From Pseudomonas eucalypticola (GTDB taxonomy: Bacteria; Pseudomonadota; Gammaproteobacteria; Pseudomonadales; Pseudomonadaceae), in contig NZ_CP056030.1 of NCBI RefSeq assembly GCF_013374995.1, forward strand, positions 5,922,501 through 5,986,500: DNA of 64,000 nucleotides, read 5' to 3'. The notes beneath the pieces are model-generated. The model saw nothing but the letters and a program-made list of their open reading frames with translations. It was not told the DNA's origin and did no database searches. Within the stretch, counting starts at the first letter, position 1. Every line of letters starts with the position of its first letter. Made by a program: the position numbers and the translations under genes. Below, one piece after another: positions 12,211 through 18,230 of the stretch.

Positions 12211-13506
12211 ATGGACGTTACCGCTACCCTGAGCCTGGGCGACCCGCTGGAACCCGCACGCAAGGCCACTGCCGAAATGCTCCAGACCCGGGAGCGGACG
12301 TTCTCGCTGCCCCAGCCGTTCTACAACGACGAACGCCTGTTCGACATCGACATGCAGGAGATCTTCCACAAGGAATGGCTGATCGCCGGCATGACCAGCG
12401 AGATCCCCACCAAGGGCAACTTCATTACCCTGCAGATCGGCAAGAACCCGATCATCGTGGTGCGCGGCGCCGAAGGCGTGGTGCACGCGTTCCACAACGT
12501 CTGCCGCCACCGCGGTTCGCGCCTGTGCACCAGCGAAAAGGGCAAGGTCGCCAAGCTGGTCTGCCATTACCACCAGTGGACCTACGAACTGGACGGCCGC
12601 CTGCTCTTCGCCGGCACCGAGATGGGCGCCGATTTCGACATGAAGCAGTACGGTCTCAAACCGGTGAACGTGAAAACCGCCGGCGGCTACATCTTCATCA
12701 GCCTGAGCGACAACCCACCGGCCATCGACGAGTTCCTGCGTACCCTGGACCACTACATGGAGCCCTACGACATGGAGAACACCAAGGTGGCGGTGCAGAC
12801 CACCCTGGTGGAAAAGGCCAACTGGAAGCTGGTGCTGGAAAACAACCGCGAGTGCTACCACTGCGGCGGCTCGCACCCTGAACTGCTCAAAACCCTGCTG
12901 GAATGGGACGACGTCACCGACCCACGCGCCGACCAGGCCTTCAAGGACCACGTAGCAGCCTCGGCCGCCGCCTGGGAAGCCGAGAAGATCCCCTACGCCC
13001 ACGCCAGTTTCGGCCTGCGCAACCGCATCGTGCGCATGCCTTTGCTCAAGGGCACCGTGTCCATGACCCTGGACGGCAAGGTTGGCTGCAAGAAACTGAT
13101 GGGTCGCATCCAGAACCCCGACCTGGGCTCCATGCGCATCCTGCACCTGCCCCACTCGTGGAACCACTGCATGGGCGACCACATCATCGTCTTCACCGTG
13201 TGGCCCATCAGCGCCCAGGAAACCGTGGTCACCACCAAGTGGCTGGTGCACAAGGACGCCGTGGAAGGGGTGGACTACGACGTGGAGCGCATGCGCCAGG
13301 TATGGGACGCCACCAACGACCAGGACCGCCGCCTGGCCGAGGAAAACCAGAAAGGCATCAACTCCACCGCCTACCAGCCCGGCCCGTACTCCAAGACCTA
13401 CGAGTTCGGCGTGGTGAACTTCATCGACTGGTACAGCGAACGCATGCTCAGCAACCTGGGCGCCGCACCAGCCCCCTACCTCAAGGGCGTAGCGGTGCAC
13501 GAATAA
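12211..13506 (+). CDS. gbcA: Glycine betaine monooxygenase, Rieske oxygenase subunit
   Basis: Converts glycine betaine to dimethylglycine plus formaldehyde with electrons from GbcB. It has 431 residues. The Rieske 2Fe-2S site is intact: Cys98 and His100 in NVCRHRG, and Cys118 and His121 in LVCHYHQW. The catalytic domain follows, with ENNRECYHCGGSHPE providing the mononuclear iron ligands. The ATG at 12211 has an AGGA ribosome site 9 bases upstream. The open frame extends back to 11452 through gbcB on the other strand, but that is a shadow. It is the first committed step of betaine catabolism and is expected to be activated by GbdR. Confidence 0.96.
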   Translation: MDVTATLSLGDPLEPARKATAEMLQTRERTFSLPQPFYNDERLFDIDMQEIFHKEWLIAGMTSEIPTKGNFITLQIGKNPIIVVRGAEGVVHAFHNVCRHRGSRLCTSEKGKVAKLVCHYHQWTYELDGRLLFAGTEMGADFDMKQYGLKPVNVKTAGGYIFISLSDNPPAIDEFLRTLDHYMEPYDMENTKVAVQTTLVEKANWKLVLENNRECYHCGGSHPELLKTLLEWDDVTDPRADQAFKDHVAASAAAWEAEKIPYAHASFGLRNRIVRMPLLKGTVSMTLDGKVGCKKLMGRIQNPDLGSMRILHLPHSWNHCMGDHIIVFTVWPISAQETVVTTKWLVHKDAVEGVDYDVERMRQVWDATNDQDRRLAEENQKGINSTAYQPGPYSKTYEFGVVNFIDWYSERMLSNLGAAPAPYLKGVAVHE

Positions 13507-13543: not shown

Positions 13544-14172
13544 TGATCAATAAGTGATCAAACCTGGTACAGCCCGCTACACTGGCGGGCCCTGGCCATT
13601 CGCCAACACCTTATCCACAGCCGGGCCCACAGTAATTGTGGGCAAGCGCTGCCTGCCTGTGAAAAAAATTCAAAAAAAAACCGTGACTTATTCAGATACA
13701 CACTCGCGGCACAGCATTGATCAAAAAATGACCAATTCTCTGCAAGCCCCGTAATCAAAGGCTTTCAGGCTTAGGCGAACACCTTATCCACAGAAGCGCC
13801 AACAGACTTTGTGCGCAATTTTGACGGTGTTATGCGGGCCCTGTGGAAAACCCCTGAAAGCCACGGTTTACCGCTGTTGCGGGGCAGAAAAACACGTAAT
13901 CTTCTGTGATTGATCAAAAATCGATCAATCCCGGCAACGCCTTGATTGGCAAGGCTTCCAGCGTTACGCGAACAGATTATCCACAGAGGCACCAACAAGG
14001 ATTGTGGGCAAAACCTCCCTGGGAACCGTCGTCACCGCCACGATAAACCCAGGGAAAACAGCCGCTTGCGCTGTTCATTTTCTGATCTACCGGCTACAAG
14101 CCTTGCCCGCTGCGGCTCGCAGCCATGCACCAACAACTTACCCACAGGCACACCCACATGGATTGTGGGCAA
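13544..14172. repeat. Four-unit array of DnaA-box-like and TGATCA-like sites
   Basis: Fills most of the 754-bp gene-free stretch after gbcA. Each unit has (1) two TGATCA-like sites 11 bp apart, starting at 13544/13555, 13718/13729, 13911/13922 and 14072/14083; (2) a DnaA-box-like TTATCCACA at 13611, 13784 and 13977, or TTACCCACA at 14138, placed 55-56 bp after the second TGATCA-like site; and (3) an inverted TGTGGGCAA (TGTGCGCAA in unit 2) at 13638, 13810, 14003 and 14164, always 26-27 bp after the start of (2). An inner CCCACA/CCAACA box sits 5 bp before (3). A/T tracts lie at 13661-13680. Function unknown; the arrangement suggests DnaA binding. Confidence 0.8.
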
Positions 14173-14260: not shown

Positions 14261-14524
14261 ATGCATCCAGACAGCCTGCTCTCCGCCCTCGCCATCGCCT
14301 TGCTGCTCGGCATCAGCCTTGCCAGCGCCGACCCCCAGACCGACTGGAAGCAGGTCCTGCAGGTGGGGTTGCCGCTCTGCATGGCGGGCGTGGTGGCGGT
14401 GTTCTACTGGCTGCGACGCGACCAGCCGCGCAGCCAGGCACGCAAGCAGGTCCAGCCGGCGCGCAGCTTGTTGATGGTGTGGGTGAATGTGCGGTGGGAG
14501 GGGGTTGGGCGGCGCAATTCCTGA
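14261..14524 (+). CDS. Small membrane protein, two hydrophobic segments, unknown function
   Basis: An 87-residue open frame with a good ribosome site (AAAAGGGA, 8-15 bases upstream). Residues about 5-22 (LLSALAIALLLGISLAS) form a signal-like or membrane segment ending near an ASA site. A second hydrophobic segment (VGLPLCMAGVVAVFYWL) is followed by an Arg/Lys-rich stretch. The last 18 residues look unlike a conserved protein and could be read-through after a recombination junction. An ABC exporter gene starts 37 bases downstream on the same strand, so the two may be co-transcribed. I do not recognise the family; a small protein gene is also present near this place in P. putida, as far as I recall. 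Confidence 0.55.
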   Translation: MHPDSLLSALAIALLLGISLASADPQTDWKQVLQVGLPLCMAGVVAVFYWLRRDQPRSQARKQVQPARSLLMVWVNVRWEGVGRRNS

Positions 14525-14561
14525 GCTTGCGCAGAAACCATTCGATAACCTGGAGGCGGCC

Positions 14562-16226
14562 GTGCTGTCGTTCATCAAGGAAGCCATTCTGGCTCACCCG
14601 CTACTCTTCACGGGGGCTACGGTCATGGTCGCTACTCTGAAACTGTGTGCCCTCGCTCCAGCGTTCTTTCTTGGAAGAATCATCGACAGCCTTTCTGCGC
14701 ATCAAGCGCTGGATGCCTACACGATCGGCTTGCTACTGGCTGCTTTTTGCTCTGTGACCATTTTGCAGTCTGTTATCCACCCCCTTCAGACCTACCAGCT
14801 GACAAAACTGGTGCAGTTGACCCTCAAGGACAAATCCATCGAATGGACCACAGCCATCATGAACAAGGAGTTCGAGCAGTTTTCCTCGCTCCGGCTCGGC
14901 GCCCTGATCAAGGGAGTGGAACGGGGTATCACGGCCCATGAAAAGCTGCTCTCATTTTTCATCCTGAACGCTCTGCCCCTCACCATCGAACTGTTACTGG
15001 TAGCGGCCGCCTTCCTCTACGTGGGTGGAAACCTGTTATTCGTGATGATGTTGGCAACATCAATTGCGTATCTAACGGCATGTCATCGACTGATCATCTG
15101 GCGCAGGCCACACCTGGAGGCGGTCAATGACCAGGAAGATCTTGTCTCGACTCAATTGTTCGATGGTTTGAGCGCCGGCAAAGCCATCAAGTTGGAACAC
15201 GCCACCCTCCATGCGCTGCAACCGCTTTTCAATAGCTACGGTAGTTATGCACAGGCGGCTACCCAGGTTGCGAGTTCAGCCGCAGTGCTGGGGTCTGCAC
15301 GAATTTTATTCGTGGGCCTGTCGACAGCCGCGTTACTGGCGTGGGGAATACACGATAGGTTTCAGCCCGTCCCGACACTGTCGGTCGGCGAACTGGTGGC
15401 CATCTTTTCGATCGCTGGCGGGCTTTTGGTCAACATCAGTGGCCTGGCCGATGCCTATCGGACGCTCGACCAGTACATCGCCGACAAGCGTCGATTGGTT
15501 GAGCTGCTCGACCTCGACGGACTACCGCTTGATCACCCTATGCCCGACGGCCTGCAAGCAGAGCAGATCGGACTCCTTCCTCAGCCCGGTGAAGCGTCAG
15601 TGCCGCTGCGCTTCAACACCAGCCAATCAGTAGCCATCGTGGGGGCGAGCGGCGCTGGCAAGACAACGCTGCTGGAAACCCTGGCGGGACTGGTGGCGAC
15701 GGCCCGGCATCGCTTGATAATCAACGATAGCCCCATGGAACACCTCACTTGTTACTTGAAGATGATCAGATACTGCCCCCAGCACCCCGGTTTCGTTGAA
15801 GGCGAATTTCGCCAAGCGGTGCTGTTCGGGCAACCTCCGGCCCCGGTCATGGAGCGGTACGTTGACGCACTGGGGCTGCGAACCCTTGTGGATAACCGCA
15901 CGATCAGCGAGGGGGGGAAAAACATCTCCGGGGGGGAGGCGAAACGTCTCACCCTGTTGCGACTGATAAACCGCCCTGGCCGCTTCAACCTGTTTGATGA
16001 ACCCACTGCTTCCCTGGACGTCGAAACGACCACCCTGGTTTGGAACGTGTTGTTTGCTGTATTTCAGGGAAAGGGACTGGTGTGCGTCACCCACGATGTC
16101 GATGCGCTGCACCGTTTTGACCGAGTCCTGGTGATACGCGCCGGTCGTGTGGTGGCAGACGGCCCTTGGCAGGAGCTGAAAGGACGGCGCGACGTCGGCG
16201 CGATGATCGAAGAAATTGGCGGGTGA
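14562..16226 (+). CDS. Orphan ABC transporter, fused membrane and ATPase domains
   Basis: A 554-residue half-transporter. About six hydrophobic segments in residues 1-300 precede a nucleotide-binding domain. The Walker A GASGAGKTTL (near 360), signature ISGGEAKRLTLLR (near 473), Walker B FNLFDEPTASLD and H-loop VTHD are all intact, so it should hydrolyse ATP. I prefer the GTG at 14562 because GGAGG lies 5 bases before it; the frame is open back to 14487. The domain order is that of type IV exporters of peptides, lipids or drugs, but no substrate partner is adjacent. Its base composition is clearly lower in G+C than its neighbours. It separates gbcA from the etf genes and ends 5 bases from etfB, suggesting insertion into the betaine cluster. 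Confidence 0.85.
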   Translation: MLSFIKEAILAHPLLFTGATVMVATLKLCALAPAFFLGRIIDSLSAHQALDAYTIGLLLAAFCSVTILQSVIHPLQTYQLTKLVQLTLKDKSIEWTTAIMNKEFEQFSSLRLGALIKGVERGITAHEKLLSFFILNALPLTIELLLVAAAFLYVGGNLLFVMMLATSIAYLTACHRLIIWRRPHLEAVNDQEDLVSTQLFDGLSAGKAIKLEHATLHALQPLFNSYGSYAQAATQVASSAAVLGSARILFVGLSTAALLAWGIHDRFQPVPTLSVGELVAIFSIAGGLLVNISGLADAYRTLDQYIADKRRLVELLDLDGLPLDHPMPDGLQAEQIGLLPQPGEASVPLRFNTSQSVAIVGASGAGKTTLLETLAGLVATARHRLIINDSPMEHLTCYLKMIRYCPQHPGFVEGEFRQAVLFGQPPAPVMERYVDALGLRTLVDNRTISEGGKNISGGEAKRLTLLRLINRPGRFNLFDEPTASLDVETTTLVWNVLFAVFQGKGLVCVTHDVDALHRFDRVLVIRAGRVVADGPWQELKGRRDVGAMIEEIGG

Positions 16227-16231
16227 GGTGC

Positions 16232-17002
16232 TTAGCGCACCACCCCCTCCTCCACCAACACCTTGAGAATCGCCTGCGCCCCCTCCTGCGCACTCACACC
16301 CTTGAGCACCTGCCCGCCGCCACCGCTGGCCTTTGCCGTGGCTGCTTTCATGCGGTCGGCACCGCTCTTGGCCTTGATCACTTTCAACCGCTTGGGCCGG
16401 GGCTTGGCGGGGGTCAGTTCGGCGCCTGTGTATAAGTCGTCGATCACGATCTCTACCTTGTCCACCTGGAACTGGCCGCGCTGGGCTGGGCCGTAGGCGC
16501 TTTGCCGAGCTTTGGGCGCGGCGTTGTCGACGGTGGCCAGCAGCGGCAAGCGCACCTTGAGGCGGCGACGCTGACCGCGTGGCAGGGCTTGCAGGACCTG
16601 GGCGACGCCATTGCTGACCGACTCCACTTCGGCAAGGCCAGTCACCAGTGGCCAACCCAGGCGTTCGGCCAGCAGGAAAGGCAGCATGCCCGACCCTTCA
16701 CCGGTTTCTGCCTGGCTACCGGTGAGCACCAGTTGGGCACCGACGTCATGGAGGAAGTCGGCCAAGGCGGGTACCACGTCGCTGCCGGGGGTTTGCTCGA
16801 TGACGTCCATCTGGTCCAGGCCCATGCCCAGGTAGGCGCGCAGGGCGGGTTCGCGAACGTCGCCGGCGTGCACGACCTGCAAGTTATCCCCAGCCAGTTG
16901 CAGGCCCAGCTCGACGGCGCGCGAATCCTGTTCGGCGCGGCGGCTGCGGCCAGAGGTGGGGTGGGCGCCGATGGACACCAGGCTGACGACTTTCATGTTC
17001 AT
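16232..17002 (-). CDS. etfB: Electron transfer flavoprotein, beta subunit (betaine cluster)
   Basis: Partner of EtfA. The dimer most likely takes electrons from dimethylglycine demethylase DgcAB and passes them towards the quinone pool. The protein is 256 residues from the ATG at 17002, chosen because GAGG lies 6 bases upstream; an in-frame ATG at 17020 is possible. The adenine-nucleotide-binding fold of the family is recognisable (VLTGSQAETGEGSGMLPFLL). The C-terminal region is Lys/Pro-rich and diverged from the general metabolic EtfB, as expected for a dedicated paralogue. The start overlaps or abuts the etfA stop at 17010, in the operon dgcA-dgcB-etfA-etfB. Confidence 0.88.
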   Translation of the reverse strand: MNMKVVSLVSIGAHPTSGRSRRAEQDSRAVELGLQLAGDNLQVVHAGDVREPALRAYLGMGLDQMDVIEQTPGSDVVPALADFLHDVGAQLVLTGSQAETGEGSGMLPFLLAERLGWPLVTGLAEVESVSNGVAQVLQALPRGQRRRLKVRLPLLATVDNAAPKARQSAYGPAQRGQFQVDKVEIVIDDLYTGAELTPAKPRPKRLKVIKAKSGADRMKAATAKASGGGGQVLKGVSAQEGAQAILKVLVEEGVVR

Positions 17003-17009
17003 GTGCACC

Positions 17010-18230
17010 TCAGGCGGCATCGCGCTTGGCTTCGTTACGGTAGGCCGCGACCGCGTCGATCAGGGCCTCGAGCAGTTCGGCGCTGTCGCCGATCACCGAC
17101 AGGTCGGCGCGCTTGATCATGTCGCAACCAGGGTCCAGGTTGATGGCGATGACCTTGTCGCAGGCGCCGATACCCTGCAGGTGCTGGATAGCCCCGGAAA
17201 TGCCCACGGCCACGTACACCCGCGCGGTCACCCAGGTGCCGCTGGCACCCACCTGGCGGTCGCGGGTCATGAAGCCATCATCCACGGCCACCCGCGACGC
17301 GCCTTCGGTAGCGCCCAGGGCGGCAGCGGTGCGGTGGAACAGGGGCCAGTCCTTGACGCCGTTGCCGCCGGAAAAGATGAACTCGGCCTCGGCCATGGGG
17401 ATGGCGGCCGGGTCCACGGCTACCGCGCCCAAGTCCTCGATGCGTGGCAGGGAGCGGGCCACGGTGGTGGACAATTCCACCGGCAGGGCTTCGTGACGGG
17501 TTTCATCCACGGGTTCGGCGCACTCGGCGGCGGCCAGGATCAAGCGCGGCACAGCGCGGCTGATGTCGTGCTGGCCGGCGCCAGCACGGCCAACACAGGT
17601 ACCATCCCTGACTTGCCAGATGCGCGTCGCCGGGCGCTCGCCGAGGCTGGCGCCCAGGCGGCGACCAAGTTCGCCGCCGCCGCTGCGGCTGTCGGGTAGC
17701 AGCCAGTGGCGAGGGGTGAACTGGTTATCCACAGCCCGCAGGCCCTGCACGCGCTGCTCGGGGGCATAGCCGTCGTATTCACTGCCGGCGATCACCAACA
17801 GACGGTCGACGCCGGCTGTGGAAAACCCGCTTTCCTTGTGTTCGCCAAAGACAATGGCCAACACCGCGCCGTCGTTGCCGGCCAGTTGATGGGCCAAGCC
17901 AAGCAGGTCCCGGTCGTGGCTGCCGAGGCGGCCGCCGACCATGTCGGGTACCACGGCGATGTAGAACGCCGGGGCCACCACCTGGTGCAACGGCAGCAAC
18001 ACTTCAGCAGCAGCGCTGCGCTTGCCGGCGCCGCCCTGCTGGGCGCCACTGCGGTCGATACGCTTGACGCCATTGGGTCCGATGAAGCCCACGGCATGGG
18101 GATTCTTGCGGATCACCCCCTGGGGGCCCATCCAGGACGCCTGGGCGGGCTGCATGGCCGCGTGCAATGGATGCAGGCGGTTACGGGCGATCCACTCGGC
18201 CCGCGGGTCGCGGCGGATAATATCGCTCAT
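17010..18230 (-). CDS. etfA: Electron transfer flavoprotein, alpha subunit (betaine cluster)
   Basis: FAD-carrying subunit of the dedicated ETF, 406 residues, longer than housekeeping EtfA (about 310) because of an N-terminal extension rich in Arg/Pro. The C-terminal FAD-binding signature is present (VAVGISGAIQHLQGIGACDKVIAINLDPG). The ATG at 18230 shares one base with the TGA of dgcB, so translation is coupled; a TTG one codon earlier was not used. The pair acts with DgcAB in dimethylglycine oxidation; this follows from conserved clustering in pseudomonads rather than from a residue-level signature. Confidence 0.92.
   Translation of the reverse strand: MSDIIRRDPRAEWIARNRLHPLHAAMQPAQASWMGPQGVIRKNPHAVGFIGPNGVKRIDRSGAQQGGAGKRSAAAEVLLPLHQVVAPAFYIAVVPDMVGGRLGSHDRDLLGLAHQLAGNDGAVLAIVFGEHKESGFSTAGVDRLLVIAGSEYDGYAPEQRVQGLRAVDNQFTPRHWLLPDSRSGGGELGRRLGASLGERPATRIWQVRDGTCVGRAGAGQHDISRAVPRLILAAAECAEPVDETRHEALPVELSTTVARSLPRIEDLGAVAVDPAAIPMAEAEFIFSGGNGVKDWPLFHRTAAALGATEGASRVAVDDGFMTRDRQVGASGTWVTARVYVAVGISGAIQHLQGIGACDKVIAINLDPGCDMIKRADLSVIGDSAELLEALIDAVAAYRNEAKRDAA

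Follow-up and report, generated by a model that had tools for sequence, protein, structure and literature searches.

In Escherichia coli, DnaA is recharged at the DARS loci: ADP-DnaA molecules bound to the opposed boxes I and II make a head-to-head contact, ADP leaves, and apo-DnaA takes up ATP, as described in sections of PMC8682772 and PMC5742627, which also report that Fis activates DARS2 in growing cells. According to a section of PMC5742627, both DARS loci share a common spacing, with box I opposed to boxes II and III. DARS2 activity depends on Fis and needs IHF (part of PMC4245941), and datA, a noncoding cluster of DnaA boxes near oriC, needs an IHF site (part of PMC4585315); no Fis site is named for datA in the literature consulted. 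The distances of datA, DARS2, and DARS1 from oriC are 0.10, 0.21, and 0.33 of the genome, respectively (part of PMC5010248). The studies of DnaA-recharging and DnaA-inactivating sites consulted here are on E. coli, and a comparative figure in PMC8682772 covers E. coli, Shigella, Erwinia, Yersinia, Photorhabdus, Rahnella, Vibrio, and Shewanella; in the open-licence literature that was searched by titles and the starts of abstracts, we recognized no study of Pseudomonas that deals with DARS or with arrays of DnaA boxes.

In this study, we have analysed a gene-free stretch of a Pseudomonas chromosome, at positions 13,545 to 14,172 of a 64,000-nucleotide stretch of DNA (the window), in which four units have one common geometry. 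Judged from its sequence, this region is very probably a DnaA- and Fis-binding DnaA-control array of the DARS sequence family. We favour, with rather less assurance, the reading that it is a tandem, Fis-gated, DARS-type DnaA-control locus of four modules, most likely promoting the recharging of ADP-DnaA, and it probably helps to set the timing of chromosome copying. What the sequence shows directly is the geometry of the boxes, the constant distance at which the Fis consensus stands from them, conservation across most of the sampled members of the genus, an oriC-proximal position, and a near-whole-turn spacing of the units. A preliminary description of this DNA had stated that no described element has this architecture; that is not the case for the core, which has the known DARS geometry, but the open-licence literature searched gave no description of the placement of the Fis site, the tandem array, or the phasing, nor of a tandem, phased, Fis-linked, oriC-proximal Pseudomonas array.

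From the start of one unit to that of the next, the distances are 173, 193, and 161 bp. In each of the four, a 15-bp match to the Fis consensus GnnYAnnnnnTRnnC lies 66 or 65 bp before a strong DnaA box (box III), an extra weak box (...AACA) ends 2 bp ahead of box III, a weak box II follows box III after 3 bp on the same strand, and box I follows box II after 5 bp on the opposite strand. Unit 1 consists of a perfect (6/6) Fis-consensus site (13545..13559), 66 bp before box III, an offset that is kept across the units; a weak box at 13602-13608; box III, TTATCCACA (13611..13619, plus strand); box II, GGGCCCACA (13623..13631, plus); and box I, TTGCCCACA on the minus strand (13637..13645). Unit 2 likewise has a 6/6 Fis-consensus site (13719..13733), a weak box (13775-13781), TTATCCACA as box III (13784..13792, plus), the weak box II GCGCCAACA (13796..13804, plus), and TTGCGCACA on the minus strand as box I (13810..13818); an additional DnaA-like box, TTTTCCACA (13842..13850, minus), is located in the linker between units 2 and 3. 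Unit 3 has a Fis-like site that scores 5/6 (13912..13926), a weak box (13968-13974), TTATCCACA (13977..13985, plus), the weak box II GCACCAACA (13989..13997, plus), and TTGCCCACA on the minus strand (14003..14011). Unit 4 returns to a 6/6 Fis-consensus site (14073..14087), followed by a weak box (14129-14135), TTACCCACA as box III (14138..14146, plus), the weak box II ACACCCACA (14150..14158, plus), and TTGCCCACA on the minus strand (14164..14172).

Most of what had been described from the letters of this region was borne out. The fixed internal geometry of the four units is present and is kept in related genomes; the three perfect DnaA boxes are the TTATCCACA of units 1 to 3, with TTACCCACA as the one variant; and the inverted TGTGGGCAA, thought to start 26 or 27 bp from the strong box, starts exactly 26 bp past the start of TTATCCACA or TTACCCACA in all four units, in the version TGTGCGCAA in unit 2 (general form TGTG[G/C]GCAA). 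The A/T tract at 13661-13680 is also present, and the AT fraction of the array is 0.48, compared with 0.37 for the window. The pair of TGATCA-like sites assigned to every unit occurs only in units 1 to 3 and is absent from unit 4; in unit 2 its second half reads TGACCA, and unit 3 has CGATCA there. It is better read as one predicted Fis site than as two sites, because all four units fit the Fis consensus whereas only three have the pair; the alternatives of two separate sites or of an IHF site were dropped in favour of the single Fis consensus. The geometry exceeds what chance would give: a genome-wide search for TTATCCACA-N{8,28}-TGTG yielded 15 matches, two of which have one TTATCCACA in common; the spacer is N17 in eight of them, of which three are units 1 to 3 and the others lie elsewhere in the genome. 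Many units also carry a conserved GGC-T-CAG element about 16 to 24 bp before TTATCCACA, between the Fis site and box III, which resembles a stretch of a canonical Pseudomonas DARS-like locus. A search of the window against Rfam gave no matches.

Read on the minus strand, a unit consists of TTGCCCACA pointing forward, 5 bp, the weak box II pointing backward, 3 bp, TTATCCACA (box III) pointing backward, and the extra weak box 2 bp farther on. E. coli DARS1 (L033:2108-2142) reads TTATCCACT forward, 5 bp, TTATCCACA backward, 3 bp, and a third box backward; the box orientation and the 5/3-bp spacing are therefore those of all four array units, with box I opposed to box II and box III in tandem with box II. 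The core of DARS2 can be placed in this 5/3 frame as well. The strong box is box III in the array, versus box II in E. coli. Box I of the array matches 6 of 8 consensus positions and box II only 3 to 5, with the ACA end of box II retained at 0.97 per base (104 units). DARS1 differs from the array further in being a single core, and DARS2 likewise has a single known core. On a 24-point geometry score, DARS1 scored 22, the DARS2 core 19, datA 18, and the origins of E. coli and Pseudomonas 16 and 15, respectively; the array units scored 18, 18, 18, and 17, and in the remainder of the window a score of 17 was reached once in about 125,000 positions. The score thus separates the array from background but not from datA, and it was set aside as a discriminator because datA scored 18. 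The best module fit in datA has a weak box I (4/8).

Two sequence profiles were used for comparison. The array-based profile R1 was built from an alignment of 54 of 104 candidate units, and its scores for the four window units (E values of 3.8e-21 to 7.8e-17) are not independent, since these units are among the 54 sequences. R1 did not detect DARS1 significantly (7.8 bits, E value of 0.14). In other families, the box II of the sites that it matched was often a perfect TTATCCACA, which supports the assigned register of the boxes. Profile R2 was built from 25 modules without array units (10 canonical Pseudomonas modules, 8 from the core pattern, and 7 found through R1 matches). It found DARS1 in register (34.2 bits, E value of 1.2e-9) and gave the four array units 26.6 (a partial match, positions 2 to 80), 21.6, 20.3, and 17.6 bits; partial matches to datA and E. 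coli oriC reached 17.1 and 12.3 bits, so the weakest array unit is close to datA. R2 matched 126 of 140 genomes drawn evenly across the class, our own included. The core pattern itself, TTATCCACA-N5-TGTGGATAAC with one mismatch allowed, was found in 48 of 57 genomes. All 36 members of the genus have it, 31 at a single locus and 5 at two loci, as do 12 of the 21 genomes from outside the genus; the pattern written backward, used as a control, had no match.

The Fis site is the second element of the module. The consensus is that printed in the part of PMC8682772 consulted, and a Fis homologue (60% identity) is encoded in the genome. Among 112 units from 31 loci, a set in which 8 units come from other loci and some few are duplicates read in antisense, a perfect match lay at exactly -65 from TTATCCACA in 44 units and at -66 in 4; no other single offset had it in more than 2 of the 112. 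The corresponding search for a conserved IHF site was negative, with a perfect IHF consensus in at most 2 of the 112 units at any offset. At the Fis offset of the array, DARS1 scores 2/6 and DARS2 3/6, so that neither has a Fis site there. Canonical Pseudomonas loci scored at least 5/6 at that offset in 22 of 23 cases, which are largely one orthologous site. As an independent test, DARS-like cores of other families were chosen by the core pattern alone; of the 12 genomes outside the genus that matched it, 8 were used, and the site at -64 to -66 scored 6/6 in four, 5/6 in two, and 4/6 in two; the background was 0.34% at 6/6 and 4.9% at 5/6 or better, as taken from the window, which is possibly richer in GC than some of those genomes. 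At 29 class-wide loci picked by R2, the site scored 6/6 in 22, 5/6 in 4, and 4/6 in 3, a count that is biased, since R2 chose the loci and includes the Fis columns.

The array was traced through relatives of this strain. BLAST with the array gave matches in 30 of 57 genomes, our own included, all of them among the 36 of the genus, and none in six same-genus genomes of 3.7 to 5.1 Mb. Clusters of at least three units were present in 27 of the 36 same-genus genomes; in G001 and G003, for example, only pairs at other places matched. A pattern scan of named genomes found at least 120 stretches, and among the 80 matches listed, 79 were from Pseudomonas and 1 from a Methylococcaceae metagenome-assembled genome. 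A search of E. coli genomes with 61 bases of unit 2 gave no match. Across 149 loci, four units were present in 100, three in 32, five in 5, two in 8, and one in 4; these loci were selected by matching, so the counts are not prevalences, and some are one contig taken twice or loci other than the gbcA one. For the per-position counts, 99 arrays with four units and gaps of less than 260 bp were used, the others being left out. Identity among 62 arrays less than 85% identical (those at or above 85% having been collapsed) was 0.993 for TTATCCACA, 0.93 for CCAACA, 0.854 for TGTGGGCAA, 0.656 for the Fis 15-mer, and 0.522 for the middle spacer, although picking units by weight matrix inflates the conservation of the boxes somewhat. 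The earlier suggestion that spacing is kept while the bases between the boxes diverge is in line with these comparisons, in which the geometry is retained and the boxes stand far above the spacers in identity.

The distances between units fall into clusters of 128 to 129, 138 to 139, 149 to 150, 159 to 162, 171 to 173, 181 to 184, and 191 to 194 bp; only 10 of 384 spacings were strays (65, 124 three times, 147, 168, 169, 170 twice, and 200 bp). Tested for a 10.7-bp period, all 384 spacings gave a vector strength of 0.92 and the 186 spacings of the 62 nonredundant arrays one of 0.949, compared with 0.089 (n = 73) and 0.165 (n = 90) for the two flanking control spacers. On a tree of 96 distinct arrays (identical concatenations collapsed), built from the units themselves, 68 length changes were inferred, comprising 39 of 1 to 2 bp, 25 of 9 to 13 bp, and 4 of 22 bp. 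None of the 68 was of 3 to 8 or 14 to 18 bp, versus 15 of 51 in the gbcA-to-array spacer, a control that covered 59 of the 96 arrays. The absence of such off-phase changes suggests that the units probably act as one stereospecific complex, and selection apparently holds the array to a single face of the double helix. In this respect it looks like a DARS2-type stereospecific complex: in the part of PMC4245941 available, Kasho et al. report that in E. coli DARS2 5-bp shifts were worse than 10-bp shifts for some sites, although not for all. The phasing predicts that 5-bp insertions between units will break function and that 11-bp insertions will spare it. At a second locus with two modules, the lengths fell into classes of 362 to 365 and 374 to 377 bp, about 11 bp apart, with a vector strength of 0.79 (n = 11); another module pair, about 111 to 113 bp apart, was off phase.

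With dnaA located by PF08299, the array lies 438 kb from that gene in a genome of 6.37 Mb (0.07 of the genome), in agreement with the proposal that this betaine-cluster locus is not far from oriC, and this position resembles that of datA rather than that of DARS2 or DARS1. The distance was 326 to 648 kb in 10 of the 11 array-bearing complete genomes and 1,117 kb in G029; G003, G012, and G014 were excluded from this count, G014 having a weaker three-match cluster at 898 kb. All 14 complete genomes carry related units, each with 3 to 11 at 1 to 5 loci, mostly near oriC. Of the 128 units, 114 were within 1 Mb of dnaA, as were 56 of the 64 loci (2 of the 11 own-genome matches, with E values above 0.001, were omitted, and the lengths of G012 and G014 were rounded). 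Proximity to oriC is not special to the modules, because strong DnaA boxes in general cluster near oriC here: 98 of all 111 TTATCCACA sites in the genome were within 1 Mb of dnaA, versus 35 expected, with 100 of the 111 listed by position and the other 11 placed near dnaA by list order, some of which could be on the 29-kb second contig. There were no TTATCCACA sites between 0.97 and 1.87 Mb on one arm, and the backward pattern had 19 occurrences in the genome. This concentration near oriC looks like a DnaA titration domain. Further modules are located at four loci up to 0.76 Mb from dnaA (G000:C1:643,825/644,199; 756,025/756,228; 5,637,322; and 5,899,052), the one at 756,025 being weak (E value of 0.0017), and have counterparts at similar distances in other complete genomes. 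Canonical DARS-like cores occur twice in the same genome, at C1:4,879,727 (L040:2228-2331) and C1:5,028,106 (L267), 0.23 and 0.21 of the genome from dnaA, which is near the relative distance given for DARS2. They are like the array in core geometry, and the first, which is flanked by a DUF1232 gene and an FKBP-type isomerase gene, has a Fis-like site at -66; unlike the array, they are single units 1.3 to 1.5 Mb from dnaA, and the first has a strong I/II pair.

The principal alternative to recharging is that the array is a datA-like sink which, duplicated early, binds many DnaA molecules after initiation, titrates them or promotes ATP hydrolysis, and so blocks reinitiation. We consider this explanation unlikely, yet it has a substantial case: the oriC-proximal position is that of datA, 98 of the 111 TTATCCACA sites of the genome are within 1 Mb of dnaA, datA equals the array in the simple geometry score, the canonical cores are present elsewhere in the genome, and weak-strong-weak boxes in the same direction would suit head-to-tail assembly of ATP-DnaA. 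However, the array lacks the conserved IHF site that datA requires (part of PMC4585315), and opposed boxes at a fixed 5/3 spacing, Fis, and phasing of the units are not needed for plain titration. The role put forward in the preliminary description, a DnaA-titrating or DnaA-reactivating locus, is supported by the DARS-identical geometry, the Fis-consensus sites, the conservation in the genus, the proximity to oriC, and the phasing. Reactivation of ADP-DnaA, as opposed to titration or inactivation, is given only about an even chance, because box II is weak, the array lies where datA would, and canonical cores exist separately; since those two cores exist, the array is not needed for the canonical DARS role. 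Other points against the favoured reading are the lack of a conserved IHF site, the lack of a Fis site at this offset in E. coli DARS1 and DARS2, the nonsignificant R1 score of DARS1, the closeness of the weakest array unit to datA under R2, and the module pair that is off phase.

The remaining explanations concern the neighbourhood of the array and its origin. The left neighbour, and the usual flank in relatives, is gbcA (12211..13506, plus strand), which encodes the oxygenase subunit of glycine betaine monooxygenase, and the right neighbour in many relatives is etfB, for electron transfer flavoprotein (ETF) subunit beta (16232..17020, minus strand); in this window, a small ORF (14261-14524) and an ABC-type gene (14487-16226) lie between the array and etfB. 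An operator or enhancer for gbcA, the small membrane protein, and the ABC gene, with DnaA and Fis as transcription factors, would fit the location of the array upstream of the latter two genes in this genome. The typical site in relatives, however, is the gbcA-etfB interval, with other genes intruding on either side; the small ORF and the ABC gene are absent beside the array in many relatives in which it persists, the array is downstream of gbcA, and where etfB follows, the array faces its 3' end. The operator for the adjacent membrane and ABC genes that had been suggested is therefore improbable. A cryptic or mobile replication origin, or a plasmid remnant, which had also been suggested, would account for the DnaA boxes, the A/T tract, and the raised AT content, but the whole array has no plasmid or phage match, its locus is syntenic, no replication gene is among the named flanking genes, and the box cluster beside dnaA (C1:6,372,586-6,372,858) fits the module geometry poorly (best score, 15); we regard this origin as highly improbable. 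Nor does the array look like the chromosomal oriC: a box cluster adjoins dnaA, and the array is 438 kb away. Just as improbable is a functionless dispersed repeat family, for which the related units in each of the 14 complete genomes might speak: rather than the hundreds of random locations contemplated earlier for a generic repeat, there are 3 to 11 units at 1 to 5 loci per genome, 114 of 128 are no more than 1 Mb from dnaA, at distances that recur, the boxes far exceed the spacers in conservation, and the spacing is phased.

Under the DARS-type recharging that we favour, DnaA and Fis would bind each module, and Fis, which is abundant in growing cells, would bend it; the four cores, all facing the same side of the helix, could then cooperate in a single nucleoprotein complex in which the release of ADP would be promoted by DnaA molecules that oppose each other on boxes I and II. 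The locus would thereby help in DnaA recharging and in the timing of initiation. We would propose more tentatively that it represents a distinct class of DnaA-control element, namely, a phased scaffold of Fis and DnaA that has its strong box shifted to position III from position II and that may act as a cooperative, high-capacity charger or sink, forming, with about six other ori-proximal modules, a pseudomonad initiation timer atop ordinary DARS. A fourfold phased array near oriC in much of Pseudomonas offers a concrete, deletable locus for the study of replication timing in nonenteric bacteria.

Beyond the genus, the core-pattern and R2 comparisons suggest that DARS-like cores with a Fis-consensus site 64 to 66 bp away are widespread in the class. 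The combination of a DARS-like core with a Fis-consensus site at 65 to 66 bp may be a module found throughout the class, and R2 often had two matches per genome; if the site beside such cores in many families is real, growth-phase coupling of DnaA recharging may be ancestral in the class. A member of another family (G051) has three modules with identical cores about 670 bp apart (L200:1502-1604, 2171-2274, and 2849-2952). In E. coli K-12, a DARS-geometry site that scores 21 lies in the rppH-ygdT interval (L032:2136-2170), about 300 bp from the DARS2 core, which scores 19, and is possibly an unrecognized extra core.
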